This document shows positions 32,269-46,019 of a stretch of 64,000 nt of DNA, one piece after another (the stretch's first letter is position 1; the number at the start of each line of letters is the position of its first letter). The stretch lies in assembly GCF_023516555.1 (NCBI RefSeq), contig NZ_JAMGBD010000001.1, positions 682,001-746,000 of the forward strand, in the 5' to 3' direction. Both the position numbers and the translations under genes were made by a program. The notes below the pieces were generated by a model that was not told the DNA's origin, searched no databases, and was given only the letters and a program-made list of their open reading frames with translations. The stretch is from Sphingomonas alba. Its GTDB lineage: Bacteria > Pseudomonadota > Alphaproteobacteria > Sphingomonadales > Sphingomonadaceae.

Positions 32269-32345
<77 letters not shown>

Positions 32346-32382: not shown

Positions 32383-33135
32383 TCAGGCCGTATCTGTCCC
32401 GACAATGCAGCCGTCGGAAAACCACTGCCCGAGCCATTTGCCTAGCGATTCAATCGCTACATCGGGCGTCAAAGCCGCGCAGACTGTGTCGCAGACTTCA
32501 CCGAACCTCGCCCCGGATGAGAGCATCTCCAACGCTTTACCTTCCAGGGGCTCGGCGCGGCGAAACTGGCAAACCTCGTCGGATCGCCAAACCAGGATCG
32601 TTCGCGAAGTTTCGGAAGTATCTGCCGAGGGTATCGGCCTGTCGTGCTTGATGGCTGACCATATGTCAGTTGCGTTCGTATCTTGATGTAAGATCTTGAA
32701 AGAGGGTGCGAGATTCAATCGCGCGGCATCCCAGTCGATGCCTTCGCATCCTTCCATCGAGATGCCCGGCTCATCGCCGCTTACAAACGCCTCGCTTAGC
32801 GCCCATTCAAATTCGGCGAGCTCATGACACTCCGGCGCATCGGGCAATTGCCGTTTGAGGGTTGCCGGGAAGTCCGCGGGGTAGGCATCCAGGGTCCAGC
32901 TTCGCGGCGTTACGGAATCGATGTGGTCAGCAACCGCAGCCTCAAATCTCGTCCAACCGATCCATTCCAGAGTCATTGGGTAGGCGACCTCGAGGCAGGT
33001 GCGGAGCTGCGACCGATAATTGTTTCTGTAGACATCAAGGCCAGCGCGGGCGCCGGATCCCAATTGCGCGGCAAATTGGTCGTCCCCGTCCAGCAACCAG
33101 TCGCGGAAGCCCGACTGCAATTCGCCGAGGTTCAC
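32383..33135 (-). CDS. bufC: BufC-type partner protein (DUF2063)
   Basis: A 250-residue protein. The N-terminus (LGELQSGFRDWLL, AGLDVYRNNYRSQLRTCLEVAYPMTLEWIGW) is the HvfC/BufC-type DUF2063 domain, which in characterised systems works with the DUF692 oxidase by recruiting the precursor peptide. The rest is acidic and helical. It overlaps bufB by four bases. Last gene of the bufA-bufB-bufC unit, just before the tRNA on the other strand. Confidence 0.85.
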   Translation of the reverse strand: MNLGELQSGFRDWLLDGDDQFAAQLGSGARAGLDVYRNNYRSQLRTCLEVAYPMTLEWIGWTRFEAAVADHIDSVTPRSWTLDAYPADFPATLKRQLPDAPECHELAEFEWALSEAFVSGDEPGISMEGCEGIDWDAARLNLAPSFKILHQDTNATDIWSAIKHDRPIPSADTSETSRTILVWRSDEVCQFRRAEPLEGKALEMLSSGARFGEVCDTVCAALTPDVAIESLGKWLGQWFSDGCIVGTDTA

Positions 33136-33962
33136 GCCGCAGCTTTCCCGAACGAGCCCGCGATAAAGCGCGCCGTGTCGAGTTCACTCAGCAATTCCGA
33201 CAATTCGGGGATCGCGTCGTCCCGTTCGATCATGGTCGCGACCGGGCCGAGTTTCGGAAGCACATGCCGATACAGCTGCCATACGCTGTCAGGAACTTCC
33301 TGATCGTGTGTATCGATGAGGAGTTCTGTTCCCTTGCTGTGGCCCGCCAGGTGAATTTGATAGACGTCCTTCGGGAACAATCCGTCCAGGTACTGAATGG
33401 CATCAAAGCCGTTATTGCACGCGCTGACGTAGACGTTGTTGACGTCCAGGAGCAGGCCGCAACCCGTTCTCGCGCACAATTCGCTCAGAAACTCCCATTC
33501 CTTCATCTCGCTCGTGAAATTGAGGTAGCTTGACGGGTTTTCGAGCAAAATCTCCCGGCCGAGCACCTCCTGCGTTTTGAGGACATTTGCCGTGACGACC
33601 TCTAGCGTTTCACCGTTGAACGGCAGGGGCAGCAGGTCATGCGAATTGAATGAGGTCGTGCGCGTCCAAGACAAATGATCCGACACGAAAAGTGGTTCGA
33701 CCTCGTCGACCAGATTTCGCAACCGGCGGAGATAATCGAGATCCACTCCGTCGACAGACCCCACGGACAGGGAAACGCCGTGCAGGATGACCGGATACCT
33801 CTCCCGGACCTGGCGAAGGATCCTACGTGGCCGCCCGCCATCCACCATGAAATTTTCGGAAATCACCTCGACAAAGTCGACGGGCACCCGAGTCTCGAGA
33901 AACTCGGAATAATGTTGCTTTCGGAGGCCGAGGCCGAAACCGTGGAACGGAAGAATTGCCAT
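33132..33962 (-). CDS. bufB: BufB: DUF692 multinuclear non-heme iron oxidase
   Basis: A 276-residue TIM-barrel protein with the DUF692 (MNIO, MbnB-like) residues: GFGLGLR at the start, EVISENFM, LHGVSLSVGS, SDHLSW, ENPSSY, LDVNNVYVSA and IHLAGH supply the His, Asp, Glu and Asn ligands for two or three iron ions. Known members modify cysteines of precursor peptides (oxazolone/thioamide in methanobactin, thiooxazoles in bufferins). It follows bufA after a strong hairpin and overlaps bufC, so the BufA peptide is the expected substrate. Confidence 0.92.
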   Translation of the reverse strand: MAILPFHGFGLGLRKQHYSEFLETRVPVDFVEVISENFMVDGGRPRRILRQVRERYPVILHGVSLSVGSVDGVDLDYLRRLRNLVDEVEPLFVSDHLSWTRTTSFNSHDLLPLPFNGETLEVVTANVLKTQEVLGREILLENPSSYLNFTSEMKEWEFLSELCARTGCGLLLDVNNVYVSACNNGFDAIQYLDGLFPKDVYQIHLAGHSKGTELLIDTHDQEVPDSVWQLYRHVLPKLGPVATMIERDDAIPELSELLSELDTARFIAGSFGKAAA

Positions 33963-34015: not shown

Positions 34016-34288
34016 TTACTTGCCGGCCTTGAGCGTTCCGCCCTGCGCCTTGCATTCCTTCGCCGTCAGGTCCTTGAAACCCTGGCCCTTGCATTCGTTC
34101 TGGCCCTTGCACTCGTTGTGAGCGCTCTTGCAGTCCGACTGGCCCTTGCACCCATTGACGCCGAAGCATTCGACTTTGGCAGCTTCCTTGCCACCGTCCT
34201 TGGCGAAGGCAGGTGTCGAACCGCCGGCGGCAAACGCGAGGAGGGCGGCCGAAGCGGCAATGCTGATTCCAGACTTTGTGATGTTCAT
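34016..34288 (-). CDS. bufA: BufA-type bufferin precursor
   Basis: A 90-residue exported peptide: Sec signal (MNITKSGISIAASAALLAFA to about residue 29) and a mature part with six cysteines (41, 47, 53, 60, 66, 79) in repeating CKGQ units: ECFGVNGCKGQSDC, ECKGQNECKGQGF, KECKAQGG. This is the BufA2-like pattern of bufferins, periplasmic RiPPs whose cysteines are oxidised by a DUF692 enzyme and which bind copper. The SigF-type promoter 44 bases upstream supports stress induction. Which cysteines are modified cannot be read from sequence. Confidence 0.88.
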   Translation of the reverse strand: MNITKSGISIAASAALLAFAAGGSTPAFAKDGGKEAAKVECFGVNGCKGQSDCKSAHNECKGQNECKGQGFKDLTAKECKAQGGTLKAGK

Positions 34289-34331: not shown

Positions 34332-34357
34332 TTCGGGGCGCATAAGTACGCGGTTAC
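34332..34357 (-). promoter_or_regulatory. SigF-type promoter of bufABC
   Basis: On the minus strand GTAACC (34357-34352), 16 bases, CGAA (34335-34332): an exact match to the SigF promoter known from Caulobacter. The -10 lies 43 bases before the bufA ATG. The promoter starts one base after the end of nrsF, so sigF-nrsF and bufABC are separate but adjacent units. Confidence 0.85.
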
Positions 34358-34358
34358 A

Positions 34359-35000
34359 TTACCAGCGAAGAAGTCTTGGGCCCGTCAGTATCCCGACCGC
34401 CGTGGAAAGCAGCATCCCAAGACTATACCAAGTGAATACGAACAACGTCGAAGATTCAGGACAATGGAGGCAATAGATCATTGCCGCGCACGCTCCTGCG
34501 GCAAGGCCGGCCATTCCCCCTGCGAAGCGCAGTCGCGTGGGCGCCAGCCGCCGAAGGGACAGCAATAGCGCAGCAAATATCGGAAGTGATAGTGCGAATA
34601 CCAGGAACGGACACTTGGCGGCTGTTTTCCCCAGCCACATCGACATCCAATGAGATTGCGGAGCAGCCGATAACTCCATGATGCCCAGGAATCCCAGGAT
34701 CGTTATTGGCGCGGCCAGCATCCACAGCCATTTGGGGGCTTGATTAGGCCTGCCGAGCCGCAAAGTAGCCAAGATCGCAATGGATGCGATCGAAGCCGCG
34801 TAAACCAGCTTGATCCAGAATCCCGGCTCTTGAAGCGCCGTCAGGAAGTCCGCGCGAAAGCCCAGCGTTCCAGCGACGACCCCCAACGAAAGGATGACTC
34901 CGATGATCAGGCCGCCGGAGACCAGCCGGCTAAGCGCCTGACGCGGAACCGGCTGCAAATCCTCGCTCAACGAGCGAATAAGGGCTTCGGAATCCATCAT
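34359..35000 (-). CDS. nrsF: NrsF-type anti-sigma factor (DUF1109)
   Basis: A 213-residue membrane protein with six hydrophobic segments (about residues 26-47, 61-79, 90-108, 126-147, 154-175 and 184-207) and the short cytoplasmic N-terminus MMDSEALIRSLSEDLQPVP. This is the DUF1109/NrsF family that holds SigF-type ECF sigma factors inactive at the membrane. Cysteines in TAAKCPFLVF and IYCLHCPESS may sense metal or oxidant. Overlaps sigF by four bases. Confidence 0.9.
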   Translation of the reverse strand: MMDSEALIRSLSEDLQPVPRQALSRLVSGGLIIGVILSLGVVAGTLGFRADFLTALQEPGFWIKLVYAASIASIAILATLRLGRPNQAPKWLWMLAAPITILGFLGIMELSAAPQSHWMSMWLGKTAAKCPFLVFALSLPIFAALLLSLRRLAPTRLRFAGGMAGLAAGACAAMIYCLHCPESSTLFVFTWYSLGMLLSTAVGILTGPRLLRW

Positions 35001-35530
35001 TTGCCGCCAACCTTGAGCGCAAGTGCCTTCATTCCGCGATGTACCGAGACCTTGACGTCCGATTGACCCACGCGATTAGCGGCCGCAGCTTCGGCGACAC
35101 TCGCGCCTTCCAGACGCGTGGCGCGGATCAGTCGCGCCTGTTTTTGGGGCAGGGTTTCCAGCAGGCTATTGATATCGACGCTCGCATTTACGACGTCCTC
35201 AAATCCCTCACTCAAGAGAATGTCCTCCAGGCCCTCGATCGGGACCGTCCGGCGCGTACGCCGGTGAAGGTCGATCATCTTGTATCGAGCGATGGAAAAC
35301 ACCCAGGGAGTGAAGGCGCGGGTCCGATCATAGGTCAGCCGACGCGTGTGTATTGCGATGAGCGTCTCTTGGACCATGTCTTCCACATCATCGAATCTAT
35401 CGGACATGCGTTTACGGAAGAAAGCCCGTAGCAGCAGCACGAGCTCGCGCAGTAAGCTGGCGTAATCAGGCTCGCTCCCCTCAAGCGCCGCCGTCATCCA
35501 GACCCTCAGCTGTCGCTCATCTACTCGCAT
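34997..35530 (-). CDS. sigF: ECF sigma factor, SigF type
   Basis: A 177-residue ECF sigma factor. Region 2 is FRKRMSDRFDDVEDMVQETLIAIHTRRLTYDRTRAFTPWVFSIARYKMIDLHRR (about residues 38-92) and region 4 is LLETLPQKQARLIRATRLEGASVAEAAAANRVGQSDVKVSVHRG (about 122-166). Adjacent NrsF and the matching promoter motif at 35547-35572 identify it as SigF-like and autoregulated. The distance from the -10 to the ATG is only 16 bases, so the mRNA is nearly leaderless. Confidence 0.92.
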   Translation of the reverse strand: MRVDERQLRVWMTAALEGSEPDYASLLRELVLLLRAFFRKRMSDRFDDVEDMVQETLIAIHTRRLTYDRTRAFTPWVFSIARYKMIDLHRRTRRTVPIEGLEDILLSEGFEDVVNASVDINSLLETLPQKQARLIRATRLEGASVAEAAAANRVGQSDVKVSVHRGMKALALKVGGK

Positions 35531-35546
35531 GTCATGTCTCGAGCTA

Positions 35547-35572
35547 TTCGGGGTGGCGGGGTAATCGGTTAC
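35547..35572 (-). promoter_or_regulatory. SigF-type promoter of sigF-nrsF
   Basis: Minus strand GTAACC (35572-35567), 16 bases, CGAA (35550-35547); exact match, 16 bases before the sigF ATG. Indicates positive autoregulation. The rest of the 166-base gap to the next gene shows nothing else. Confidence 0.85.
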
Positions 35573-35696
35573 AAATCTCCCGCCGCGCCAGGTGTGTCCT
35601 CCTGGAGCACAGCCAGTCGAAGATCATACCAGTCGCCCCGCATAAGCCAAAGCCCGCCGCACTCCGAACGGTTCGAGATGTCGATTCAAAATTCGA

Positions 35697-36002
35697 CTAA
35701 TCGTTGAAGAGGTGGGTCGCGTGGGTCAGCGCGCCACCGGCCCGGATTGCGGCCGCGACGAGCGCGGTTTCGGCCAGCTGTTCGTCCGTCGCTCCTTCCT
35801 TGCGAGCGGCATCGACATGCAGCTTGATGCAGTATGGGCACTGCGTGGTCAGCGCGACGCCGATCGCAATAAGCTGCTTTTCGCGAGCAGTCAGGGCTCC
35901 TGCTTCAAAGGACGCTTTGTCGAATGCCCAGAACGCGCTCATGCCACTCGAGGCGGTCTTGTCCAGCACTCCCAACTTACTCAGATTGTCCATATCGTAC
36001 AT
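35697..36002 (-). CDS. AhpD-like carboxymuconolactone decarboxylase family protein
   Basis: A 101-residue all-helical AhpD-fold protein with the redox motif CPYCIKLH (Cys55, Cys58, His62), i.e. the E-x8-C-x2-C-x3-H pattern of alkylhydroperoxidase-like proteins. Such proteins reduce peroxides or detoxify small thiol-reactive compounds. Third gene of a leftward three-gene run, 19 bases after the DUF1348 gene. Confidence 0.86.
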   Translation of the reverse strand: MYDMDNLSKLGVLDKTASSGMSAFWAFDKASFEAGALTAREKQLIAIGVALTTQCPYCIKLHVDAARKEGATDEQLAETALVAAAIRAGGALTHATHLFND

Positions 36003-36021
36003 CGAATTTACCTTTGAATGT

Positions 36022-36489
36022 TCAGATGTTCAGTTCAGTCAGCCCCGGATGACCGGCGGGTCGAGGGCCTGGCGCCGGCCAACGGAACAAGCGATCGCTT
36101 TCCGCTATCCCAAGATCATTGATGGTCGCATATCGGCGCCGCATGAGGCCGTCAGGGTCGAACTCCCAGAGTTCGTTTCCAAACGACCTGGTCCAGTTCC
36201 CTGCTACGTCGTGGCTCTCGTAGCAGAAGCGGACCGCCATGCGGTTCTCGCGAAAGCCCCAAAGCTCCTTGATAAGGCGATAATCCAACTCCTTCCTCCA
36301 CTTGTCATGGAGGAAGGCTTGGATCTCATCACGGCCGGCGAGGTTCTCTGTCCGGTTCCGCCAAAGGCTGTCCTCGGTATACGCAAGGACGACCTTCGAC
36401 GGATCGGTAGTGTTCCAGAGATCTTCAGCCAGCCTGACTTTCTTCCTGGCAGAATCCAGGTCGAAAGGCGGAACAAGTGCGTGGGTCAC
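36022..36489 (-). CDS. DUF1348 NTF2-like protein
   Basis: A 155-residue protein with the DUF1348 sequence ([44 protein letters not shown] and [21 protein letters not shown]), an NTF2/SnoaL-like fold of unknown function often encoded next to oxidoreductases or AhpD-like proteins. It overlaps the upstream AhpD-like gene by four bases, so it is co-translated with it. Confidence 0.86.
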
Positions 36490-37031
36490 GCGGCTCGCGA
36501 TACCTTCACGACTGGGAAGTCGATGTCGGTCTGGGCAACGTTGTTGACGAAGTTGGTCAGGACATTTTCCGCAACGAGGGCGACTACGTCGACCATCTCG
36601 GACTCCTGCAGGCCAGCGGCAACTGCGGCGGCAAGGTCCTCATTGCTGACTCGGCCACGCTTTTCGGCGACGAGGGTCGCGAAGCGTACGATTGCCGCAG
36701 TTTTCGGATCGGCGGCGCTGCCCTTGCGGTTGAGCGCGATGTCCTCACCACTAAGACCCGCAAGGTTTGAACCGAGATAGGAGTGGGCGGAAAGGCAATA
36801 GTCGCAGCCGTTCACCTCGGCGACGGCAATCGCGACCTGTTCGCGGATCTTCGGCGTAAAGGCGCCTGCCAGCGACGCGTTTAGCTGAGCGTAACCTTCC
36901 AGGACTCGCGGGCTCACTGCCAGCAAACGGAACAGGTTGGGAATGACGCCGAACTTGCGATCGATTTCATCGAGGACGTCGTGAGACGCGCTGGGCGCAC
37001 CGTCCCGCGTGGGGATGTTGATTCGAGACAT
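36486..37031 (-). CDS. AhpD-like peroxidase-related protein
   Basis: A 181-residue peroxidase-related/carboxymuconolactone decarboxylase family protein with the motif [14 protein letters not shown] (Cys76, Cys79, His83). The ATG at 37031 (MSRINIP) is chosen over an in-frame ATG five codons upstream. First gene of an operon AhpD-like / DUF1348 / AhpD-like, divergent from a LysR regulator that probably controls it. The 106-base intergenic region is AT-rich. Confidence 0.87.
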
Positions 37032-37137
37032 GAACGTGGACTCCAAATGGCAAAAATGCCGGCGCGCCCCATTTAATCTTTCTTAATATGATGATAATCA
37101 GTCCATATCGGGCAATTATTTCTCGGGATTTGGAATA

Positions 37138-38073
37138 ATGGACCGTTTGCATGCCATGCGCTTGCTCGTCGAGGTAAGCGATTGTGGGAGCTTTTCCCGT
37201 GCGGCGCAGAAGCTGAACGTTCCCCTTTCGACGCTGAGCCGGAAAATCACGGACCTGGAAGAGCATGTCGGCACGAAATTCCTCGTCCGCACGACACGAA
37301 AGATAGCGCTTACAGACGCCGGTAGAGCCTATCTGAATTCATGCCGGGACATTTTGGAGCGAGTCGATGCGGCCGAGCAGGCCGCAGCGGGCACATTCGC
37401 GAATCCCAAAGGCGCACTGGCCATGACCTCGCCAGTCATGTTTGGGCAAAGATTGGTGATCCCAATCGTCCAGGACTTCCTTGAGAGATATGCCCAGATC
37501 ACACTTGATTTGGTGCTTTCTGACCGCAACGCGGACCTGGTCGAGGAGGGTTTCGATCTTGCCGTCAGGATTGGACATTTACCCGACAGTTCGATGTCGG
37601 GGGTTCGCCTCGGCGCGACGAGGAGGATTATTTGCGCCAGTCCGGCGGTGCTCGCCAGACATGGCATGCCTCGGCGGCCGGAGGATCTGGCTGACCTCCC
37701 CTGCGTGGCGCATGATTTCCAGGTTTCCACAACGAGCTGGAGTTTCCGCGGCGAGGGCAAGAAAGCTGACCTGAAGGTCGGAGTCTCTCCGCGCCTGTCC
37801 GTTTCAACAGCCGAAGGCGCGCTTGAAGCCGCCATCCAGGGCGCGGGTTTCGTGCGACTCTTTTGTTACCAGGCTGCGGAAGCACTCCGGCACGGCCAAT
37901 TGCGCGTGGTCCTAGCCGAGTTCGAACGCGAGCCAAGCCCGGTAAGTTTCCTGCACGTATCCGGAAGGGCGGTGCCAGCGAAGGTCAGGAGCTTCCTTGA
38001 TTTCGCGGCTCCTGTGTTGAGAGGGCAGCTCACCGAACTGGCAGCGATCACATCGCAGGCGGAGTCGCAATAG
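37138..38073 (+). CDS. LysR-family transcriptional regulator
   Basis: A 311-residue LysR protein: DNA-binding domain MDRLHAMRLLVEVSDCGSFSRAAQKLNVPLSTLSRKITDLEEHVGTKFL at residues 1-49 and an effector domain (GALAMTSPVMFGQRLVIPIV, VEEGFDLAVRIGHLPDSSM). This is the CrgA/DmlR-like branch. Divergent from the AhpD-like operon, which is its likely target. Cys13 lies in the DNA-binding domain. Confidence 0.9.
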   Translation: MDRLHAMRLLVEVSDCGSFSRAAQKLNVPLSTLSRKITDLEEHVGTKFLVRTTRKIALTDAGRAYLNSCRDILERVDAAEQAAAGTFANPKGALAMTSPVMFGQRLVIPIVQDFLERYAQITLDLVLSDRNADLVEEGFDLAVRIGHLPDSSMSGVRLGATRRIICASPAVLARHGMPRRPEDLADLPCVAHDFQVSTTSWSFRGEGKKADLKVGVSPRLSVSTAEGALEAAIQGAGFVRLFCYQAAEALRHGQLRVVLAEFEREPSPVSFLHVSGRAVPAKVRSFLDFAAPVLRGQLTELAAITSQAESQ

Positions 38074-38141
38074 GTTGATGATCTGATTGCGGTTGACTGA
38101 TGCATCGACGCTCACGACGCCGTTTGTCTTGCGTTGTGTAA

Positions 38142-38167
38142 GTAACCAGCCGCGCTCCCCAGCCGAA
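38142..38167 (+). promoter_or_regulatory. SigF-type promoter of doxX
   Basis: GTAACC (38142-38147), 16 bases, CGAA (38164-38167); exact match, 29 bases before the doxX ATG. Between them lies an AAAGGGG ribosome-binding site. Confidence 0.85.
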
Positions 38168-38196
38168 CTTCGATCGAGCATTGCAAAGGGGACCAA

Positions 38197-38700
38197 ATGG
38201 CAGGCACCGCTTCTGTACGCCAACGTTCGATGTTGGCCGCGTTCAATCCACGAAACCCAGAATTCGCGCGATGGGGAGCCCTGCCGTTACGGATAATCGT
38301 TGGCTACGGCTTCTTTGCGCACGGGCTCGCAAAGCTGGAAAAGGGTCCGGAAAAATTTGTCGCGATCGTCGACGCTTTGGGCGTCCCGTTTCCTCATGTG
38401 GCGGCGTGGTCGGCGATCATGGTGGAATTCGCGGGCGGGCTGCTTATGCTGGCTGGCGCCGGGATCACGTTGCTCAGTCTACCAATGATTGCGGTGCTGC
38501 TGGTGGCGATTGTGACCGTCCATCTTCCGTTCGGATTTACGTCGGTGAAATTGATGGAAGTAACCGCTTCGGGTCCGAAATTCGGCCCGCCCGGGATAGA
38601 AGCTGACCTGCTTTATCTCGCCTGTATTGCGGCGATGTTCCTGATCGGGCCGGATCCGGTCTCGGTTGACGGTATCCGTGCGCGGCGTCGGGGCAGCTGA
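38197..38700 (+). CDS. DoxX-family membrane protein
   Basis: A 167-residue DoxX protein with four membrane helices (about residues 28-48, 67-88, 92-112 and 135-152) and the opening LPLRIIVGYGFFAHGLAKLEKGPEKF. DoxX genes are the usual fourth member of buf operons and of the SigF regulon in Caulobacter; here the gene is detached from bufABC by 4 kb but carries its own SigF-type promoter. Probably a membrane quinone- or thiol-linked redox component; the exact role is unknown. Confidence 0.88.
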   Translation: MAGTASVRQRSMLAAFNPRNPEFARWGALPLRIIVGYGFFAHGLAKLEKGPEKFVAIVDALGVPFPHVAAWSAIMVEFAGGLLMLAGAGITLLSLPMIAVLLVAIVTVHLPFGFTSVKLMEVTASGPKFGPPGIEADLLYLACIAAMFLIGPDPVSVDGIRARRRGS

Positions 38701-38711
38701 GGCTCAGACGC

Positions 38712-39104
38712 TTATGATGCCCACCAGATTCGCCACGGTGGATAGAGCCGGTTCCTTCCGGCGGAGTACAGCCGGACATCATGCCCGTCGGGATCGCGCA
38801 TTCGCGCCTCCCTCCACAAATAGTCCATGTCGGTCGGCGCCTGGATGAATTCGATACCGGCCGCGGACAGGTTCGAATGCATCTGATCGACATCGTCGCA
38901 TTCGAAATACAAATGGCACCCGTCAACTGCCGGCGAACTTGGCGACGACATCACTTCGATGGACAAGGTGGAGTCGCTGGCCGGGACGTGGAAGCGCGCG
39001 TAGCGCGGCTCATCCAACACGATGAGACGAAGACCCAACCGCGTGTAGAAATCACGCGAGCGCGCGAGGTTGCTGACTGCAAGTGTTATATGGTTCAGTT
39101 TCAC
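38712..39104 (-). CDS. VOC-family (glyoxalase/bleomycin resistance) protein
   Basis: A 130-residue two-module VOC protein, opening MKLNHITLAVSNLARSRDFYTRLGLRL and ending DPDGHDVRLY. The first His ligand (His5) is present; HLYFECDD and the end region could supply the other metal ligands, but the terminal Glu is missing, so catalysis is uncertain. It follows the 158-residue gene by seven bases and ends convergently with doxX. Confidence 0.82.
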   Translation of the reverse strand: MKLNHITLAVSNLARSRDFYTRLGLRLIVLDEPRYARFHVPASDSTLSIEVMSSPSSPAVDGCHLYFECDDVDQMHSNLSAAGIEFIQAPTDMDYLWREARMRDPDGHDVRLYSAGRNRLYPPWRIWWAS

Positions 39105-39111
39105 GCGTCGA

Positions 39112-39588
39112 TCATCCTATAACCAGCGAGGACAAAGGCCCGACCTGTTGCAGATGACGATCAATGACAGTCGTCACCACGGTCGAGTTGATTTCGTCGA
39201 TTTGTCGACGTCCAATTCCTGACGCGGATGCACGCACAATTTCAGCGTCATCCGGACGGCCCCTGCTTGCAAGGACGGCCAGTGCAAGGCGGAACACGGC
39301 CTGGCGACGATCCGGACGACACGCATCGCCCATCGCGGCCAATCGATTGATGTCGCCAAGGGTAAGCACGCGGCCCAGGCAATCCAACGAAGCAGTAACA
39401 TCCTGCACCGCCTGGTGATCGGAGCCGGCTCTAATGAATGCGTTCAGACACACGCGAATCTGCAGCTCAACCCGGGCAAGCTCGAAGACCGCGTCTTGTG
39501 GACCAGCTTGCGACCAGCCCCGCCTGACCGAGGCAACCTCACGCGGACGACTGCTCTGCAGGGCGAGGCAACGCCCGACGAAACGCAT
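39112..39588 (-). CDS. Hypothetical helical protein, 158 aa
   Basis: A 158-residue mostly helical protein with no recognised family. A GGAGGG ribosome-binding site lies eight bases before the ATG, and the gene is directly followed by the VOC gene, which supports its reality. Visible features are an Arg-rich N-terminus and two long amphipathic helices (LDCLGRVLTLGDINRLAAMG, RQAVFRLALAVLASRG). A one-mismatch SigF-type motif lies just upstream. Confidence 0.55.
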   Translation of the reverse strand: MRFVGRCLALQSSRPREVASVRRGWSQAGPQDAVFELARVELQIRVCLNAFIRAGSDHQAVQDVTASLDCLGRVLTLGDINRLAAMGDACRPDRRQAVFRLALAVLASRGRPDDAEIVRASASGIGRRQIDEINSTVVTTVIDRHLQQVGPLSSLVIG

Positions 39589-39616
39589 GACATGCTCCCT
39601 CCGAAATGAATGCTAT

Positions 39617-39642
39617 TTCGCGCGGAGCGGCGGACCGGTTTC
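39617..39642 (-). promoter_or_regulatory. Weak SigF-type motif
   Basis: Minus strand GAAACC (39642-39637), 16 bases, CGAA (39620-39617): one mismatch, 28 bases before the ATG of the 158-residue gene. Several one-mismatch copies are expected by chance in the window, so only its position supports it. Confidence 0.3.
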
Positions 39643-39749
39643 TAATTGGGTCACATTCTTACCAGCCGAAAATGGAATACAGTTTTCCATTCGGACGTAT
39701 TGGCTGCGGGAGAAATTTGGCGGACTTGCTGCCGCACTCAATCAGTGCG

Positions 39750-39775
39750 GTAACCGATGGTGCATTTGCGCCGAA
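39750..39775 (+). promoter_or_regulatory. SigF-type promoter upstream of acetyltransferase
   Basis: GTAACC (39750-39755), 16 bases, CGAA (39772-39775); exact match. It lies 114 bases before the acetyltransferase ATG, leaving a long leader with a perfect hairpin. Confidence 0.8.
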
Positions 39776-39787
39776 TTAAACCACGCG

Positions 39788-39833
39788 ATGGCCCTGCATC
39801 GCTACGCCGTCAGCTCCCCCAGCTGACGGCGTA
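39788..39833 (+). promoter_or_regulatory. Leader hairpin with overlapping 12-codon frame
   Basis: A perfect 13-base stem (39803-39815 with 39821-39833, loop CCCCC) lies about 30 bases after the SigF-type -10. An ATG at 39788 opens a frame (MALHRYAVSSPS) whose TGA falls inside the right arm at 39824-39826. The layout resembles a leader-peptide attenuator, or the hairpin may end a small RNA; the run CTACGTTTC after it is only weakly T-rich. Confidence 0.45.
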
Positions 39834-39889
39834 CTACGTTTCAATGACGCCTGAGACGCTACCGGGCAGAATGAACCACTGAGCAACCA

Positions 39890-40333
39890 ATGAGACCGCG
39901 CATGACCGAGCAACGGCCACAAATCCTTGAACGACATGAAATGTCACCGGCAGAGGTGAGCGCGCTGGAGGACAAGTTCAACGATTTCAATGCAAGTCGC
40001 ACGGGTTTTCACGACGCTGCATCCATCGGATTCCAGCTCGAGCTACACGGGAGAATCGTCGGTGGTGTGGCGGGCTTCACGTGGGCAGGGTTTTGCGAGC
40101 TTCGCCAAGTCTGGATCGATGAGCCGTTTCGGCGATCGGGATTGGGTACTGAACTGCTCAACCGGGTAGTCGCCGAAGCGCGAGCGCGCGATTGCTCGCA
40201 CATCTACCTCGCGACCTACTCGTTTCAGGCCCCTGAATTCTACAAGAAGTTCGGATTTGAAGCGGTGGCGGTGATCGACGGACGACCCCCGGGGCATCAG
40301 GACATTATCATGCGGCTGTCATTGGCATCGTGA
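39890..40333 (+). CDS. GNAT acetyltransferase
   Basis: A 147-residue GNAT protein: GRIVGGVAGFTWAGFCELRQVWIDEPFRRSGLGTELLNRVVAEARARDC contains the acetyl-CoA loop R-R-S-G-L-G-T, and ATYSFQAPEFYKKFGFE completes the fold. Start at 39890 or, four codons in, at 39902; neither has a strong ribosome-binding site. Likely SigF-controlled through a 114-base leader. Substrate unknown. Confidence 0.85.
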   Translation: MRPRMTEQRPQILERHEMSPAEVSALEDKFNDFNASRTGFHDAASIGFQLELHGRIVGGVAGFTWAGFCELRQVWIDEPFRRSGLGTELLNRVVAEARARDCSHIYLATYSFQAPEFYKKFGFEAVAVIDGRPPGHQDIIMRLSLAS

Positions 40334-40362
40334 GTGGCGCACCGGGGCGGTTTCAACCCAGT

Positions 40363-40388
40363 GTGACCAAATCGGCCGCGCAAACGAA
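40363..40388 (+). promoter_or_regulatory. SigF-type promoter of msrB operon
   Basis: GTGACC (40363-40368), 16 bases, CGAA (40385-40388): one mismatch to the consensus, 30 bases before the msrB ATG at 40419. Position and operon content make it plausible. Confidence 0.6.
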
Positions 40389-40418
40389 TAGCGGGTGAAC
40401 TTCCAGGATCAAACCCGC

Positions 40419-40916
40419 ATGACAATCCTCCAATCACGGCGACAGCTTCTTGCCACGATTCCGGTCGGGCTGGCCGGATTCCTGTGGCTTGGAAGACCCG
40501 AAGCCGCCTCTTCGGCGGCACGGATCAATAAAACGCCCGCCGAATGGCTTCGAGAGCTTGGCCCCGAGCGATTCCGGATCCTGCGCCAGGCTGGAACCGA
40601 GCGACCCTATTCCAGCCCGCTCAATGACGAGCATGGGCGCGGGACATTCGCATGCGCTGGTTGCGCGTTGCCGCTCTTCGCATCCTCGACAAAATTCGAC
40701 AGCGGGACAGGCTGGCCAAGTTTCTATCGGCCGTTGCCCGGCTCGGTTTCGACCAAAACTGACCTGAGCCTGGGTATGGATCGGACAGAAGTGCTTTGCA
40801 CCCGCTGCGCCGGCCACCTTGGACATGTATTCCCGGATGGGCCCAGGCCAACCGGCCTGCGATACTGCATGAACGGCCTCGCGCTGAAGTTCATTCCCGA
40901 TCGGGCGCTTGGCTGA
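40419..40916 (+). CDS. msrB: Tat-exported methionine-R-sulfoxide reductase
   Basis: A 165-residue MsrB with a Tat-type signal peptide (SRRQLLATIPVGLAGFLW at about residues 6-23). The MsrB domain shows CAGCALPLF and CTRCAGHLGHVF, the zinc-binding pairs, GTGWPSF, and the catalytic Cys in RYCMN. Reduces oxidised methionine in periplasmic proteins. The ATG at 40419 is chosen because the alternative GTG at 40395 would leave only six bases after the -10. Overlaps the next gene by one base, and that gene can supply its electrons. Confidence 0.9.
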   Translation: MTILQSRRQLLATIPVGLAGFLWLGRPEAASSAARINKTPAEWLRELGPERFRILRQAGTERPYSSPLNDEHGRGTFACAGCALPLFASSTKFDSGTGWPSFYRPLPGSVSTKTDLSLGMDRTEVLCTRCAGHLGHVFPDGPRPTGLRYCMNGLALKFIPDRALG

Positions 40917-42652
40917 TGGTCTTCTATCTGCTCGCCTACCTGGGCGGCGCCCTCACCATCTTGAGCCCGTGTATCCTGCCAGTGCTGCCCTTTGTATTCG
41001 CCCGGGCGGACCGCAGCTTCGTTCGCAGCACGCTGCCGATGCTCGCCGGCATGGCTGCTACTTTCGCGATTGTGGCAACGCTTGCCGCTTTTGGCGGCGG
41101 TTGGGCCGTCCGTGCAAACTCGATCGGGCGATGGGCGGCGCTCGCCTTGCTGGCGCTATTCGGCATCGCCCTTCTTTTCCCGAGCGTCTCGGACAGGGTG
41201 ACCCGCCCACTGGTCGCACTCGGTTCGCGCATGTCCGAACGAAAGCCGGGCGAGCAGGAAAGCATCTGGTCGTCGGTGGTGCTGGGGGTCGCAACGGGGC
41301 TTCTGTGGGCACCGTGTGCCGGACCGATCCTCGGCATCATTTTCACGGCCGCAGCGCTTAAGGGCGCAAGCGCGGAGACGACATTGTTGCTGCTTGCCTA
41401 TGCATTGGGGGCAGCCACGTCGTTGGCGCTCGCGCTGCTCGTTGGTGGCAAGGTCTTCGCGCGAATGAAAAAGTCGCTTGGCGCCAGCGAGCGAATTCGC
41501 CAGGCCCTCGGCGCGCTCGTCCTTGCCGGGGTCGCCGCAATCTCGCTTGGCCTCGACACGCGCATACTGGCCAAGGTTTCCAGCGCGCAAACAACGGGGT
41601 TGGAGACGACGCTCGCGCAATCGCTTGGCGTGGGCCCCGCAATGGCCACAAGCGGACCACGCACAAGCCAAATGGGTCAGCTTGCATTGCCGAGCGAAGG
41701 AACCCTTCCTGAACTTAAAGCACTCGGCATTGGCCCTTGGTTTAACAGCCAGCCGCTCGCGACAGGCAGTCTTCGCGGAAAGGTCGTTCTGATCGATTTC
41801 TGGACCTACAGTTGCATCAACTGCCTGCGCTCGCTTCCCTATGTTAAGGCTTGGGACGAGCGCTACCGCAAGGATGGCCTGGTGGTGATCGGCGTGCACG
41901 CCCCCGAGTTCGCTTTCGAGCGCGACTCCGCAAACGTCGCGAAGGCCGTGAAGGATCTCGGTATCCACTACCCCGTCGTGATGGACAACGACTGGAAGCT
42001 TTGGCGAGCCCTCCATAACAATTATTGGCCTGCACATTTCTTCATCGACGCCGAAGGCCAGATCCGGTTCCACCATTTCGGCGAGGGAGAATATGATACT
42101 TCCGAACGCGTGATCCGGCAGCTGCTCGCTGAAGCCGGCCACTCAACGGGAGCTTCAGGAAGCAAGGCGCGTACGACGGGCACTGGCGCTGCAGGAGACC
42201 GTGCCGAAAGGAAATCGCCGGAGACTTACATCGGGTACGCTCGTGCTGACCGCTTTGCCTCGCCCGGCGGACTATTGCGCGATCAGCCAAGGACGTACGA
42301 ACCGGCTGCGCTGAATCTCAACCAATGGTCCTTCGAAGGCGCATGGCGGGACCAACGCCAAAGTGCTCGCTCACTTTCCGCCGGCGGGAAGATCAATTTC
42401 CGCTTCCACGCCCGTGACCTTCATCTTGTACTCGGCTCCGCGACTGCAAAGCCGATACGGTACCGCCTGTTGATCGACGGCAAGGCCCCGGGGCGTAACG
42501 CAGGTGTCGACACGCTTCCTGATGGGACTGGCACCGTTACTGGCCAACGACTCTACCAACTCATCCGGCAGAGCGGCCCGATTGAGGACAGGACCTTCAC
42601 GATTGAATTCCTTGATCCGGGTGTCGACGCCTTCTCGTTCACGTTCGGCTGA
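40916..42652 (+). CDS. CcdA-thioredoxin fusion (DipZ-like)
   Basis: A 578-residue fusion. Residues about 1-230 are a CcdA/DsbD-type membrane domain with the redox cysteines in LTILSPCILPVLP and LLWAPCAGPILG. Residues about 265-410 are a periplasmic TlpA-like thioredoxin with WTYSCINCLRS. The last 150 residues form a beta-rich domain as in actinobacterial DipZ. It moves cytoplasmic reducing power across the membrane; being translationally coupled to msrB, it is the likely reductant for it. TGATG overlap with msrB. Confidence 0.9.
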   Translation: MVFYLLAYLGGALTILSPCILPVLPFVFARADRSFVRSTLPMLAGMAATFAIVATLAAFGGGWAVRANSIGRWAALALLALFGIALLFPSVSDRVTRPLVALGSRMSERKPGEQESIWSSVVLGVATGLLWAPCAGPILGIIFTAAALKGASAETTLLLLAYALGAATSLALALLVGGKVFARMKKSLGASERIRQALGALVLAGVAAISLGLDTRILAKVSSAQTTGLETTLAQSLGVGPAMATSGPRTSQMGQLALPSEGTLPELKALGIGPWFNSQPLATGSLRGKVVLIDFWTYSCINCLRSLPYVKAWDERYRKDGLVVIGVHAPEFAFERDSANVAKAVKDLGIHYPVVMDNDWKLWRALHNNYWPAHFFIDAEGQIRFHHFGEGEYDTSERVIRQLLAEAGHSTGASGSKARTTGTGAAGDRAERKSPETYIGYARADRFASPGGLLRDQPRTYEPAALNLNQWSFEGAWRDQRQSARSLSAGGKINFRFHARDLHLVLGSATAKPIRYRLLIDGKAPGRNAGVDTLPDGTGTVTGQRLYQLIRQSGPIEDRTFTIEFLDPGVDAFSFTFG

Positions 42653-42655
42653 GCG

Positions 42656-43417
42656 ATGAGCCCCGAAGCGTCGCGCAGAGAGATGCTGGCACTCATCGCT
42701 GCTACCACGGCGAGCGCGCCACTTTTCGCTCAGACAGCGCCACCCATTCATGCGATCGCATTCGACGCGTTTGTTTTATTCAACACAGACGCAATTGTGG
42801 CGCGCGTCCGCGAGGACCTGGGCGATATGGCCAGTGCGGTGATGGCCGCGGCATCGACGAAACTGTTCGCCTACAGCTGGTACTACACGAGCGCAGGGAG
42901 ATACACTCCGTTCGAGAAACTCGCAGCGGATGCCTTCAAGTCGGCTACGCGAGGTCTTGGGTTGAACCCTGCTAACATGAACATCGACCGGATTGTCGCC
43001 GGATATGGGAATTTGACGGTCTGGCCTGACATCCCGGATGGACTTCAGACATTGCGGCGTCACGGAATCCGGCTGGCAGTGCTCTCCAATCTCTCGGAGC
43101 GGTCGCTTGCGGCAAGCCTTCGGGCCAACGGCATCGACGGTCAGTTCGAGAATGTCCTGAGCACGGACCGAGTTCAACAATATAAACCCAGCCCCAAGGC
43201 TTATGCCGAAGCGGTGCGGGCGTTTGGTGTCAGCAAAGACAAGATTGGATTTGCGGCATCCGCCGGCTGGGATGCTTCCGGCGCGACATGGTTTGGCTTT
43301 CCGACTGTGTGGATCAATCGCCAGGGACTTGCAGCGGAGCCCGTGCATGCAGCGCCACGCCTCGTTGCCAAAGGAGCGGACGGCCTTCTGCGACTTGCAG
43401 GCATTCAAGCCGCGTAG
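42656..43417 (+). CDS. Haloacid dehalogenase type II-like, exported
   Basis: A 253-residue HAD protein of the 2-haloacid dehalogenase type: IHAIAFDAFVLFNTDAI with the nucleophile Asp, LAVLSNLSERSL, and QQYKPSPKAYAEAVRAFG. The residues after the nucleophile (AFVLFNT in place of AYGTLFD) are altered. The N-terminus SPEASRREMLALIAATTASAPLFAQ looks like an export signal, possibly Tat, which is unusual for this family. It starts three bases after the DipZ-like gene, so it is part of the msrB operon. Confidence 0.8.
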   Translation: MSPEASRREMLALIAATTASAPLFAQTAPPIHAIAFDAFVLFNTDAIVARVREDLGDMASAVMAAASTKLFAYSWYYTSAGRYTPFEKLAADAFKSATRGLGLNPANMNIDRIVAGYGNLTVWPDIPDGLQTLRRHGIRLAVLSNLSERSLAASLRANGIDGQFENVLSTDRVQQYKPSPKAYAEAVRAFGVSKDKIGFAASAGWDASGATWFGFPTVWINRQGLAAEPVHAAPRLVAKGADGLLRLAGIQAA

Positions 43418-43451
43418 CTTTAGGCAACAAGTGCCCTTTTGCACTTGTCCC

Positions 43452-44054
43452 TCAGCTCAGGTCGGAGCTGCGGCTCAATGCCAGTTCCAACTCGATGGCA
43501 TCGTTGAGCGGCAATTGCCTGTCCGTCTGTGCCGGATAACCGCGGTCTGCCGTGAACGCATCTCGCAGAATCGCTGAAGCCCGGAATCCATGACGTAGAT
43601 AGAAGCCAAGTGCTTCAGGATCGGCGACCGATGTAGACACCGTCAGCGTGCTGGCTTTGTGCCCATGAGCGTAATCGATGACTGCATTGAGGAGTTGCCG
43701 GCCAATTCCCAATCGCTGGCAGCCTTCGGCAACCGCAATGCTCTTGAGCTCAAATACCTTATCCCCGCGCCTCACAATGAGCGCTTGCCCAAGGACTTGG
43801 CCATTTCGCAATGCGACCAGGAATTCCCCATTGCGCCAGTAGGACCGGATCTGGGTTTCTGAATCATCGGCCAGTTTGAGCAATGGCAACAAGAAGCGGC
43901 GATCACCCAGAAATGGGGCGCATTGAATCACATCGTCACCTGCTCCGGAATAAATCTTGCGCCCAGCGGTCTCGGTCGGGCGCGCCTCGCCGCTGCGTGA
44001 CATCCATCGCCGGTAGAGCGTCAGGCATCGATCACGCAGAAGCTTCGTCAGCAA
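43452..44054 (-). CDS. GNAT acetyltransferase
   Basis: A 200-residue protein with a 45-residue basic N-terminal extension and a GNAT domain: FELKSIAVAEGCQRLGIGRQLLNAVIDYAHGH carries the acetyl-CoA loop QRLGIG, and ADPEALGFYLRHGFRASAILRDAF matches the YhhY/PhnO-like C-terminus. It converges with the HAD gene. A one-mismatch SigF-type motif lies 29 bases upstream. Confidence 0.82.
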   Translation of the reverse strand: MLTKLLRDRCLTLYRRWMSRSGEARPTETAGRKIYSGAGDDVIQCAPFLGDRRFLLPLLKLADDSETQIRSYWRNGEFLVALRNGQVLGQALIVRRGDKVFELKSIAVAEGCQRLGIGRQLLNAVIDYAHGHKASTLTVSTSVADPEALGFYLRHGFRASAILRDAFTADRGYPAQTDRQLPLNDAIELELALSRSSDLS

Positions 44055-44083
44055 GCCGAATTCCCCAAAAAATCATGATGTAG

Positions 44084-44109
44084 TTCGTTCGTCGCGGCGG
44101 AATGATTAC
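44084..44109 (-). promoter_or_regulatory. Possible SigF-type promoter of acetyltransferase
   Basis: Minus strand GTAATC (44109-44104), 16 bases, CGAA (44087-44084): one mismatch, with the -10 29 bases before the ATG, the same distance as for doxX. Confidence 0.4.
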
Positions 44110-44195
44110 TCCGCAAGCGATAAGCCCACCCGCAAAACGGCAATCGCCTCACTGATTGAATCAGAAGGTTCGTGGCCGACGGCGAAAAATTCTCT

Positions 44196-44221
44196 GTAAC
44201 CCTTGATCGGCCCTCGGCGAA
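44196..44221 (+). promoter_or_regulatory. SigF-type promoter of thioredoxin-ccdA operon
   Basis: GTAACC (44196-44201), 16 bases, CGAA (44218-44221); exact match, 98 bases before the thioredoxin ATG. Confidence 0.83.
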
Positions 44222-44319: not shown

Positions 44320-44706
44320 ATGCGAGTAACCAATATCATTTTGGCTGTCCTGGCGATGACGGCTTCAGCAGACGTCCAGGCTAATGGCTTCCGCAGCTTC
44401 GAGCCTTCGACATTCGCAACGATTCAACAGCACCAGTCGCCAGCCATCGTCTTTGTGCACGCCACATGGTGCCCGATCTGCAAATCGCAGGAGGCAACCA
44501 TCAAGAAGCTCCTGGCGACACCCCGGTTCAAGAATGTCTCGGTGCTGACAATCGACTTCGATTCTCAAAAGCAGCTGTGGCAGAAGTTCGGCGCCACCGC
44601 TCAATCGACGATCATTGGCTTTCATGGACGCCGCGAGACATCGCGACTGGCCTACGAAACAGATCCCGCCAAGATCGAGGCCGTGCTGGCCTCGACCCTG
44701 CGTTAG
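44320..44706 (+). CDS. Secreted thioredoxin-fold protein
   Basis: A 128-residue protein with a signal peptide (MRVTNIILAVLAMTASADVQA) and a thioredoxin domain with WCPIC (about residues 50-54). Unlike full thioredoxins it has no obvious cis-Pro strand of standard spacing, only AQSTIIGFHG. It is followed after three bases by ccdA and so probably receives electrons from it in the periplasm. AAAGG ribosome-binding site. Confidence 0.85.
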   Translation: MRVTNIILAVLAMTASADVQANGFRSFEPSTFATIQQHQSPAIVFVHATWCPICKSQEATIKKLLATPRFKNVSVLTIDFDSQKQLWQKFGATAQSTIIGFHGRRETSRLAYETDPAKIEAVLASTLR

Positions 44707-44709
44707 CCG

Positions 44710-45438
44710 ATGGCGACCCCGCTGCTGAGCCCGATCCTAGCATTTGGAGCCGGGTCGCTAACCATCCTGTCGCCGTGCGTGCTGCCGCTCGTCCCGGTTG
44801 TGCTTGGGTCGGCGGCTCAGAAACATCGCCTTGGGCCAGTTGCGTTAGCCCTGGGGCTGATCATCAGCTTTACCTTGGTCGGGTTCGTGCTCGCCGTTTT
44901 CGGAACCAAGCTCGGAGTGACGGCCGAACAAGTGCGCAAAGTCGGCGCCGCCATCCTGATCTTGGCCGGTGCGTATCTCGCGCACCCTGCGCTGCAAGAC
45001 CAGGTCGCCGTTCGCGCCGCGCCGCTTGTTGCCTGGGCCGGTGACCGCCAGCTGGCTATCGACGGCTCCGGCCTCCACAGCCAGTTCGGCATTGGCGCGT
45101 TACTGGGTGTCGTCTGGAGCCCATGCGTTGGCCCCACTCTCGGCGCCGCGATCGCGCTCGCCGCGCAAGGGCGCGATCTTGGATCCGTCGCGTTGACCAT
45201 GGCGGCTTTTGGAACCGGCATTGCTGCAGCACTTCTGGTAATCGCCTTCCTAGGCCGGTCACTATTCAATCGGGTTCGGGGAAGTCTTTCTGGAACGGCG
45301 AAAAGCGGTAAGACGATCCTGGGCTGGGTTCTGCTAGCGGTTGGAATTGCAATTCTAACCGGTGTTGATCGCTTGATCGAAGCCGCGTTCCTCGCTCATG
45401 CGCCGGACTGGCTGATCGCGATCACGACCACATTGTGA
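44710..45438 (+). CDS. CcdA-type membrane thiol transporter
   Basis: A 242-residue protein with six predicted membrane helices and the two redox cysteines in LTILSPCVLPLVP and VVWSPCVGPTLG. CcdA proteins pass electrons from cytoplasmic thioredoxin to periplasmic thiol proteins. Here the partner is encoded immediately upstream. It overlaps the FMN reductase by four bases. A second CcdA domain lies 3 kb away in the DipZ-like fusion, so this region has two parallel systems. Confidence 0.92.
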   Translation: MATPLLSPILAFGAGSLTILSPCVLPLVPVVLGSAAQKHRLGPVALALGLIISFTLVGFVLAVFGTKLGVTAEQVRKVGAAILILAGAYLAHPALQDQVAVRAAPLVAWAGDRQLAIDGSGLHSQFGIGALLGVVWSPCVGPTLGAAIALAAQGRDLGSVALTMAAFGTGIAAALLVIAFLGRSLFNRVRGSLSGTAKSGKTILGWVLLAVGIAILTGVDRLIEAAFLAHAPDWLIAITTTL

Positions 45439-46019
45439 GGGATAGGCTGGTGGCCACTGGCAGTCGACAGCTACACATTCTCGGCCTGTGCGGTAGTCTG
45501 AGGGCGAGCTCCATCAACCGCGCCATTCTGGAAGCGGCGCGTCTCCTTGCCCCAACGCCTATTGGGCGCCTGTCGATCGTGGACGGCTCTGTTGCCCCTC
45601 ATTTCAATCCGGATCTCGACGAACCTGGACGCATGCCGCGAGCGGCCGCCGATTGGCGGGACCTCGTCCAGTCGGCAGATGGGGTGGTCATCAGCATGCC
45701 TGAATATGCTGGCGGAGTACCCGGCGCCTTCAAGAACAGCCTGGATTGGCTTGCGGGCTCGACAGCAATCTATCAGAAACCCGTGGCCATATTTGCCGCG
45801 TCAAATCGTGGTGCCGCCGCACAGAAATCCCTGGCGTCCATCCTCGAAATGCTTGGAACCGATATTGTCGTCGCTTCATGCGTTAATCTCGGCATCAACG
45901 GAGCGGAGGCTACGGCCCGCGGCCTAACGGCCGACCAGGGGATTTCCACCACTATTAGAGCGGCGCTGGGTACGCTTGTGGATCACATCCAGTCCCAGGG
46001 CGAAATTCTAGTGGAATGA
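45435..46019 (+). CDS. NADPH-dependent FMN reductase
   Basis: A 194-residue flavodoxin-like protein: LGLCGSLRASSINRAIL is the phosphate-binding loop of the NADPH-dependent FMN reductase family, and SMPEYAGGVPGAFKNSLDWL the flavin-binding motif. It could generate reduced flavin or reduce quinones or metals. The GTG at 45435 overlaps ccdA; a GTG at 45450 is an alternative. Last gene of the SigF-type thioredoxin operon. Confidence 0.9.
   Translation: MRDRLVATGSRQLHILGLCGSLRASSINRAILEAARLLAPTPIGRLSIVDGSVAPHFNPDLDEPGRMPRAAADWRDLVQSADGVVISMPEYAGGVPGAFKNSLDWLAGSTAIYQKPVAIFAASNRGAAAQKSLASILEMLGTDIVVASCVNLGINGAEATARGLTADQGISTTIRAALGTLVDHIQSQGEILVE

Follow-up and report, generated by a model that had tools for sequence, protein, structure and literature searches.

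A probable ECF16 (SigF-NrsF) envelope-stress regulon, partly gathered at one promoter-rich locus, in Sphingomonas alba

The locus described here lies within a 64,000-nucleotide stretch of the Sphingomonas alba genome (the window; assembly GCF_023516555.1, contig NZ_JAMGBD010000001.1, positions 682,001 to 746,000 of the forward strand) and is built around sigF and nrsF, which encode an extracytoplasmic function (ECF) sigma factor of the ECF16 type and its membrane anti-sigma factor. Alongside this pair are found a bufferin cluster, doxX, acetyltransferase genes, and two sets of genes for thiol and methionine-sulfoxide redox chemistry, interspersed with five exact copies of the sequence GTAACC-N16-CGAA. 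Judged from the sequence, it is very probable that these genes make up a SigF-NrsF envelope-stress regulon, partly gathered in one place and served by at least six promoters. The principal features are given below in window positions. Scores come from a position model for which 84 promoter-like sites in named relatives' loci served as the training set, with expectations taken from 40 Markov sequences.

32383-33135, minus strand: DUF2063 partner, bufC by position (PF09836)
33132-33962, minus strand: bufB, MNIO bufferin maturase (NF050167, 370 bits against a cut-off of 310; PF05114)
34016-34288, minus strand: bufA, BufA2-type bufferin precursor (NCBIfam NF050166, Cu_RiPP_BufA2, 102 bits against a cut-off of 60)
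34332-34357, minus strand: predicted bufABC promoter, exact (score 21.3, none expected in the Markov sequences)
34359-35000, minus strand: nrsF, membrane anti-sigma factor (PF06532, 231 bits against a cut-off of 26.8)
34997-35530, minus strand: sigF, ECF16-type sigma factor (PF04542 and PF08281 above cut-off; 65% identity to the closest named relatives)
35547-35572, minus strand: predicted sigF-nrsF promoter, exact (score 27.1)
38142-38167, plus strand: predicted doxX promoter, exact (score 16.9)
38197-38700, plus strand: doxX (PF07681)
39750-39775, plus strand: predicted promoter of GNAT1-msrB-ccdA/tlpA-HAD, exact (score 19.3)
39890-40333, plus strand: GNAT1 acetyltransferase (PF00583)
40363-40388, plus strand: probable additional msrB promoter, GTGACC-N16-CGAA, one mismatch (score 16.1, 0.075 expected per 64 kb)
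40419-40916, plus strand: msrB, methionine-R-sulfoxide reductase (PF01641; start and twin-arginine-like signal by inspection)
40916-42652, plus strand: CcdA-TlpA fusion with DsbD transmembrane, redoxin, and Thioredoxin_10 domains (PF17991 and PF08534 over cut-off)
42656-43417, plus strand: HAD-type hydrolase (PF00702)
44196-44221, plus strand: predicted promoter of trx-ccdA-FMN reductase, exact
44320-44706, plus strand: trx, thioredoxin (WCPIC) with a signal-like N-terminus (PF00085; start by inspection)
44710-45438, plus strand: ccdA, DsbD membrane domain (PF02683)
45435-46019, plus strand: FMN reductase (PF03358), overlapping ccdA

The core gene set proposed in the initial annotation (sigF-nrsF, DUF692/MNIO, DUF2063, and DoxX) is supported by Pfam, with bufA, which has no Pfam match at 1e-3, recognized by NCBIfam. 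As in other members of ECF16, the sigF product contains sigma regions 2 and 4, and the gene adjoins one for an NrsF/DUF1109 protein with two conserved cysteines and has a promoter of its own. The comparison set for this and later counts comprised 80 sigF loci from named records (the best 80 of 151 from a scan with the window's SigF; 1.41 Mb), mostly from Sphingomonas, Sphingobium, Novosphingobium, and Variovorax. Among 63 aligned NrsF sequences (the window and 62 of these loci) Cys130 is present in 61 and Cys180 in 60; the match to C131/C181 of Caulobacter and to the Bradyrhizobium pair is by residue number, the Caulobacter and Bradyrhizobium proteins lying outside the alignment. A BufA2 precursor, a BufB MNIO maturase, and a DUF2063 partner together constitute a bufferin (BufA2) cluster, and the bufA translation carries six cysteines after the signal. 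This BufA2-family gene comes directly after sigF-nrsF, an arrangement shared by its relatives in 32 of the 80 loci. In a survey of bufferins, Buf2 clusters likewise comprise a six-cysteine precursor, an MNIO protein, and a DUF2063 protein, but sigma/NrsF genes are reported in Buf1 and not Buf2 clusters in the accessible part of that work (PMC12452194); from the name and the cysteine count, BufA2 of NCBIfam would correspond to Buf2 of the survey.

The start of the CcdA-TlpA fusion, placed by inspection, overlaps the msrB stop by one base, and PF02683 falls just below cut-off in this protein (26.3 vs 27.1); the HAD-type hydrolase gene follows after a gap of 3 bases and probably belongs to the same operon. 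The FMN reductase gene is probably part of the trx-ccdA operon, a position that alone would place it in the regulon. MsrB, thioredoxin, and CcdA families, the parts of a possible periplasmic methionine sulfoxide reductase (Msr) redox relay, are present together with SigF-type promoters, with the export signals judged by eye. Three GNAT acetyltransferases are identified by Pfam, two in the window and one elsewhere in the genome.

All five exact copies of the motif reported in the initial annotation were recovered at the positions and on the strands described there, each oriented to a gene. In 100 dinucleotide shuffles of the 64-kb window the exact motif occurred 0.10 times on average and at most twice, and with up to one mismatch there are 14 matches in the window against 2.4 expected. 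The sequence is the same as that published for SigF binding in Caulobacter (PMC3511200), as had been noted at the outset, and the ECF16 consensus has been quoted as tGTAACc-N16-CGAA (PMC3420878). Across the 80 sigF loci, counts of the pair of boxes peak at a spacing of 16, with 143 occurrences; spacings of 15 and 17 have five apiece, and no other spacing between 8 and 24 has more than two. The motif typically stands before sigF, before bufA (where it is common in sphingomonad loci), and before a divergently oriented gene whose product is a second small, Cys-containing protein resembling bufferin. By this sequence evidence GTAACC-N16-CGAA is a real ECF16/SigF promoter, and sigF would be autoregulated from the copy at 35547-35572. 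The position model ranks the five exact sites of the window highest (16.9 to 27.1), followed by 40363-40388, a site missed in the initial annotation that lies 30 bases before the likely msrB start. Because relatives of msrB so often have a site of their own (see below), this site is counted as a probable sixth SigF promoter, serving msrB itself. The next ranks, near chance level, are 53531 (13.5), 39617-39642, and, two places lower, the site before the second acetyltransferase gene; the match at 53531, which lies beyond the cluster and within a called gene, was rejected as a SigF promoter and taken as chance. The lesser features are as follows:

39112-39588: open reading frame (ORF) of 158 amino acids without a Pfam match
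39617-39642, minus strand: SigF-like site of this ORF, one mismatch (near-chance score of 12.0)
43452-44054, minus strand: GNAT2 acetyltransferase (PF00583)
44084-44109, minus strand: weak candidate promoter of GNAT2, one mismatch (score 11.4, 0.5 expected per 64 kb)

The initial annotation had suggested a genome-wide search for the exact motif, which yielded nine sites over the three contigs of the genome (2.5 Mb), five in the cluster and four elsewhere. Because the reversed pattern, used as a control, also occurs nine times, the site total by itself proves nothing, and position and clustering were used instead. The four outside sites end from 18 nucleotides past to 19 nucleotides before a called same-strand gene start; of the oriented positions in the stretches examined, only 2.7% fall within 120 nucleotides upstream of a start. 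With gene calls from a simple heuristic based on ORFs and third-codon-position GC, on which the intergenic fractions depend, seven of the nine real sites are intergenic and two lie inside a called ORF, namely 39750 (in 39434-39826) and the DUF1223 site (in a short ORF), both ORFs being taken as spurious; by contrast, one reversed-pattern site is intergenic and eight are inside called genes, two of the nine have a start within 120 nucleotides, and the nearest pair is 3.4 kb apart. Chance origin of the cluster, dismissed in the initial annotation, is likewise rejected here on the shuffle expectation, the peak at a spacing of 16, and the placement unlike that of the reversed control.

Genes preceded by the outside sites include a paralogue of GNAT1 (30% identity; C1:900421-900750, contigs being numbered C1 to C3 in this genome) and a gene for a DUF1223 protein (site at C2:479941-479966, L009), which is possibly a SigF target. 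By listed coordinates, a DUF1223 gene is separated by no more than about 5 kb from an nrsF in 13 of the 72 genomes that have one. A third site (C2:442019-442044, L008) is directly 5' of a gene for a small protein that looks secreted, has several cysteines, and lacks a family match. The fourth (C1:1104309-1104334, L007) precedes an rsmE-like gene, recognized by eye, next to which is a glutamate-cysteine ligase gene.

Several of the proposed target promoters recur in relatives, for which the upstream sets, drawn from the best-scoring relatives, were all 26 trx loci besides that of the window, the best 29 of many msrB matches, 29 of the listed DUF1223 matches, and all 8 doxX matches. Relatives of the thioredoxin occur in 22 of the 298 genomes of the family, its own genome included, and a ccdA match adjoins the thioredoxin gene in 22 of the 26 other loci. 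Of the 25 distinct regions upstream of trx (from the 26 loci), 20 contain the motif with no more than one mismatch, 13 of them exactly, whereas shuffled motifs average 0.12 such regions and never exceed 2; a spacing of 16 gives these 20, while none of twelve other spacings tested gives more than 4. At the same stringency a site precedes msrB in 16 of 29 relatives, 4 exact (shuffled mean 0.085, maximum 1), and doxX in 3 of 8 (shuffled mean 0.03, maximum 1). The expansion of the regulon to thiol redox, put forward in the initial annotation, is therefore upheld for the trx-CcdA unit and for MsrB, whose promoters are seen in relatives, but not as a novelty, given the description of EcfF-OsrA of Bradyrhizobium in 2012.

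The sigma factor and its promoters may also represent a case of elements changing together. Of 19 relatives, 12 had readable promoters for both sigF and trx, and the third base of the -10 box agrees in all 12 (10 A, 2 T); this is modest evidence, because only two of the 12 genomes have the CGTA form. Seven genomes in which one promoter was not found (G182, G199, G141, G180, G281, G173, and G320, in our numbering) were omitted, and for G241, which has two copies of sigF, the copy beside the bufferin gene was used. The -10 box CGTA is common to sigF, bufA, and the second bufferin-like gene in G182, G241, and G320, and in G296 GTGACC is the -35 variant at both sigF and trx.

The following sequence of events would account for these features. 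SigF would be kept by NrsF at the inner membrane and released when the two conserved cysteines of NrsF detect an oxidant or too much metal, a role for the cysteines suggested by analogy with Caulobacter and Bradyrhizobium. Replacing the cysteine pair of Caulobacter NrsF weakens repression (PMC3511200), the second cysteine of the Bradyrhizobium pair is needed for the response to H2O2 (PMC3420878), and growth of Caulobacter with copper requires sigF (PMC8224329). Once freed, SigF would fire its own promoter and those of bufABC, doxX, GNAT1-msrB-ccdA/tlpA-HAD, msrB, and trx-ccdA-FMN reductase. Periplasmic copper would then be bound by the bufferin, while two membrane proteins of the CcdA type would pass electrons outward to the secreted thioredoxin and the TlpA domain, which in turn would re-reduce exported MsrB and oxidized cysteines. 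The sequences themselves show the promoters, the genes, and the return of several promoter-gene pairs in relatives; from these we infer that SigF uses each promoter, what the inducing signal is, that the proteins are exported, which way the electrons pass, and whatever part the acetyltransferases play.

Besides the equal genome-wide total of the reversed pattern, a number of observations weigh against a SigF regulon at this locus. At least one motif match was found in 58 of 61 searched genomes, only 17 of which have a match to NrsF. Of the same-genus relatives, G296 has the gene cluster most like that of the window, and this cluster has no exact site, its sites being one-mismatch forms; the three exact matches of that genome all lie outside it (reversed control 11). 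Upstream of GNAT1 none of four distinct relatives' regions has the motif at one mismatch, and conservation of this promoter was rejected, the single match being one with two mismatches in G296; the inclusion of acetyltransferases in the regulon, as initially annotated, is thus favored by the exact sites before GNAT1 and before its paralogue but finds little echo elsewhere. For DUF1223, 5 of 29 upstream regions have a site with at most one mismatch (shuffled mean 0.15), a count equal to the shuffled maximum of 5, so that promoter conservation does not rise above the best shuffled motif. The -10 boxes also show exceptions, as the second sigF copy of G241 has GTGACC/CGAA, the msrB promoter of G071 has CGCA where sigF has CGTA, and bufA of G173 and DUF1223 of G262 have CGTA where sigF has CGAA. 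The site before the rsmE-like gene may be due to chance, because its surroundings look like an inverted-repeat element. Finally, RpoE7 fusions in S. meliloti gave no response when exposed to H2O2, cadmium, or chromate (PMC6180224), and therefore the signal may differ.

Such observations lend something to a narrower explanation, in which only sigF-nrsF and bufABC are driven by SigF and the sites before doxX, GNAT1, and trx belong mainly to another ECF sigma factor or are remnants. Transcription of sigF in Caulobacter is partly dependent on another regulator (PMC3511200), and both the lack of close conservation of the GNAT1 promoter and the -10 boxes unlike that of sigF in the same genome would fit. 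The recurrence of the trx, msrB, and doxX promoters in other genomes is contrary to it, as is the trx -10 variant, which tracks that of sigF in the 12 readable genomes, and we regard it as improbable. Duplication offers another account, according to which the locus is a metal-resistance island holding copies of one promoter-bearing stretch rather than independently kept regulation. This would agree with the islands of two other genomes, G026 and G258, where 10 and 13 sites are found on one contig, and with the drop in GC across 32-47 kb (0.58-0.62 vs 0.63-0.66 to the left) beside a tRNA-Arg gene at 32269-32345. The 16 bases between the boxes, however, differ among the sites of the window and among those of G026, the trx promoter is also found far from sigF and in varied gene orders, and the tRNA has, elsewhere in the window, no repeat exceeding 12 bases; duplication is accordingly the least probable of the three, with very little to be expected of it. 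The tRNA-Arg gene (CCG) stands at the cluster's left end, at which GC falls from 0.63 to about 0.59, and is possibly an island border; insertion of an island at this gene was considered and rejected on the length of that repeat, and no integrase was recognized by eye among the called ORFs.

The SigF-NrsF regulon favored here is also unusual in its promoter density. Among the 80 named loci 5, 31, 24, 17, 2, and 1 have zero, one, two, three, four, and five exact sites, respectively, and the five sites in 10 kb of the window equal the maximum; such density is exceptional and not the rule. Comparable or denser arrangements are found elsewhere, among them those of G026 and G258, draft assemblies whose contigs may be wrongly assigned. 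In G026, of the same genus, all 10 exact genomic sites are within 17 kb of one 37-kb contig (reversed control 3), and in G258, of another genus, 13 of 15 genomic sites of the CGAA or CGTA form are on one 30-kb contig (reversed control 15) that also carries two nrsF genes, two thioredoxin genes, several MNIO genes, and genes for DUF1223, DoxX-like proteins, MsrA, and MsrB. G320 has 8 sites of either form in 20 kb around sigF. It is conceivable, though we would put the chance at somewhat below even, that in some sphingomonad-like genomes the SigF regulon takes the form of a promoter-dense island, in which copper-sequestration genes and genes of periplasmic thiol and methionine repair collect around sigF-nrsF, each unit under a SigF promoter of its own, until almost every motif site of the genome is in a single block. 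Sigma specificity and promoters would drift together (CGAA to CGTA, GTAACC to GTGACC), and such an island could pass from genome to genome as a self-contained regulon; this estimate was lowered because only one of the 80 named loci reaches five sites and none has more.

Further details of these contigs were recorded in passing. On the G026 contig (C72, L173/L174) the sites precede genes that include those for DUF3179, AhpC-like, and CMD proteins, a VTT-disulfide reductase fusion, and an isochorismatase, as well as, by eye, a radical-SAM-like gene and two bufferin-like genes, and the block of sites adjoins genes that resemble, on inspection, those of an RND metal efflux pump. On the G258 contig (C67, L268/L269) divergent SigF sites lie between msrA and msrB (29205, minus strand; 29241, plus strand). 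Within the window, the region beside sigF (35697-38073) contains a LysR gene divergent from genes for CMD and DUF1348 proteins. Control of this set by SigF was rejected, as no exact site occurs there and the one-mismatch site at 37957 is inside the LysR gene with a score of 6.5, at chance level (5.3 expected per 64 kb). A DUF1348-CMD2-LysR set is also present near sigF in L012, L016, and L018, and may be a co-inherited cassette.

Parts of this regulon have been described in other bacteria. SigF-NrsF of Caulobacter crescentus (ECF16) has the same promoter, the same sigma/anti-sigma pair, and a DUF2282-DUF692-DUF2063-DoxX core, and its regulon includes the MsrPQ/YedY system (PMC3511200, PMC8224329). 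That regulon consists of eight genes in three units, with DoxX inside the bufferin operon, whereas doxX of the window has its own promoter; in the accessible accounts no Trx-CcdA, MsrB, or acetyltransferase is among the eight genes, and the window differs also in having six promoters within 10 kb. In Bradyrhizobium japonicum EcfF-OsrA (ECF16) controls three peptide methionine-sulfoxide reductases and bll1027-bll1026, encoding a DsbD core and a membrane-anchored periplasmic thioredoxin, from GTAAC-type promoters (PMC3420878). ECF16 control of Msr together with a thioredoxin/DsbD pair is thus already known. EcfF-OsrA differs from the system of the window in its spacing of 14-15 and its seven transcription units, and Table 3 of that article gives 11 genes, several of them "hypothetical" and none named DUF692 or bufferin (PMC3420878). 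Outside ECF16, RpoE2 of Haemophilus influenzae and SigE of Neisseria each place a DUF2063/UPF0276/DoxX cluster and msrAB under one ECF sigma factor, but belong to another ECF group and have a small ZAS-motif anti-sigma factor where the window has NrsF (PMC7907618); the msrAB operon of H. influenzae includes a periplasmic thioredoxin and CcdA (PMC9404787), comparable to those of the window. In Cupriavidus metallidurans the gigPABT-rpoQ-rsqA genes encode a small periplasmic peptide, GigA, and DUF2063 and DoxX-like proteins beside an ECF sigma factor and a membrane anti-sigma factor; they form a single operon induced by copper and gold, for which dependence on RpoQ was not shown and which has no redox-relay cluster in the accessible parts of the report (PMC10304878).

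A search of open-license full text turned up no account of SigF regulons in sphingomonads and none of promoter-dense SigF islands, which is no proof of absence. As far as this literature shows, the new elements would be the union of bufferin and Msr/thioredoxin branches under SigF-NrsF, the recurring trx-ccdA and msrB promoters, the acetyltransferase paralogues, the BufA2-type cluster beside sigF-nrsF, and the rare promoter-dense islands. Candidate new SigF targets include the secreted thioredoxin-CcdA unit, exported MsrB, and perhaps DUF1223 and the paralogous acetyltransferases. A single ECF16 regulon would in this manner join the bufferin branch known from Caulobacter with the Msr/thioredoxin/DsbD repair branch known from Bradyrhizobium, and, if true, the making of a metallophore and the repair of periplasmic thiols and methionines would serve one and the same stress.

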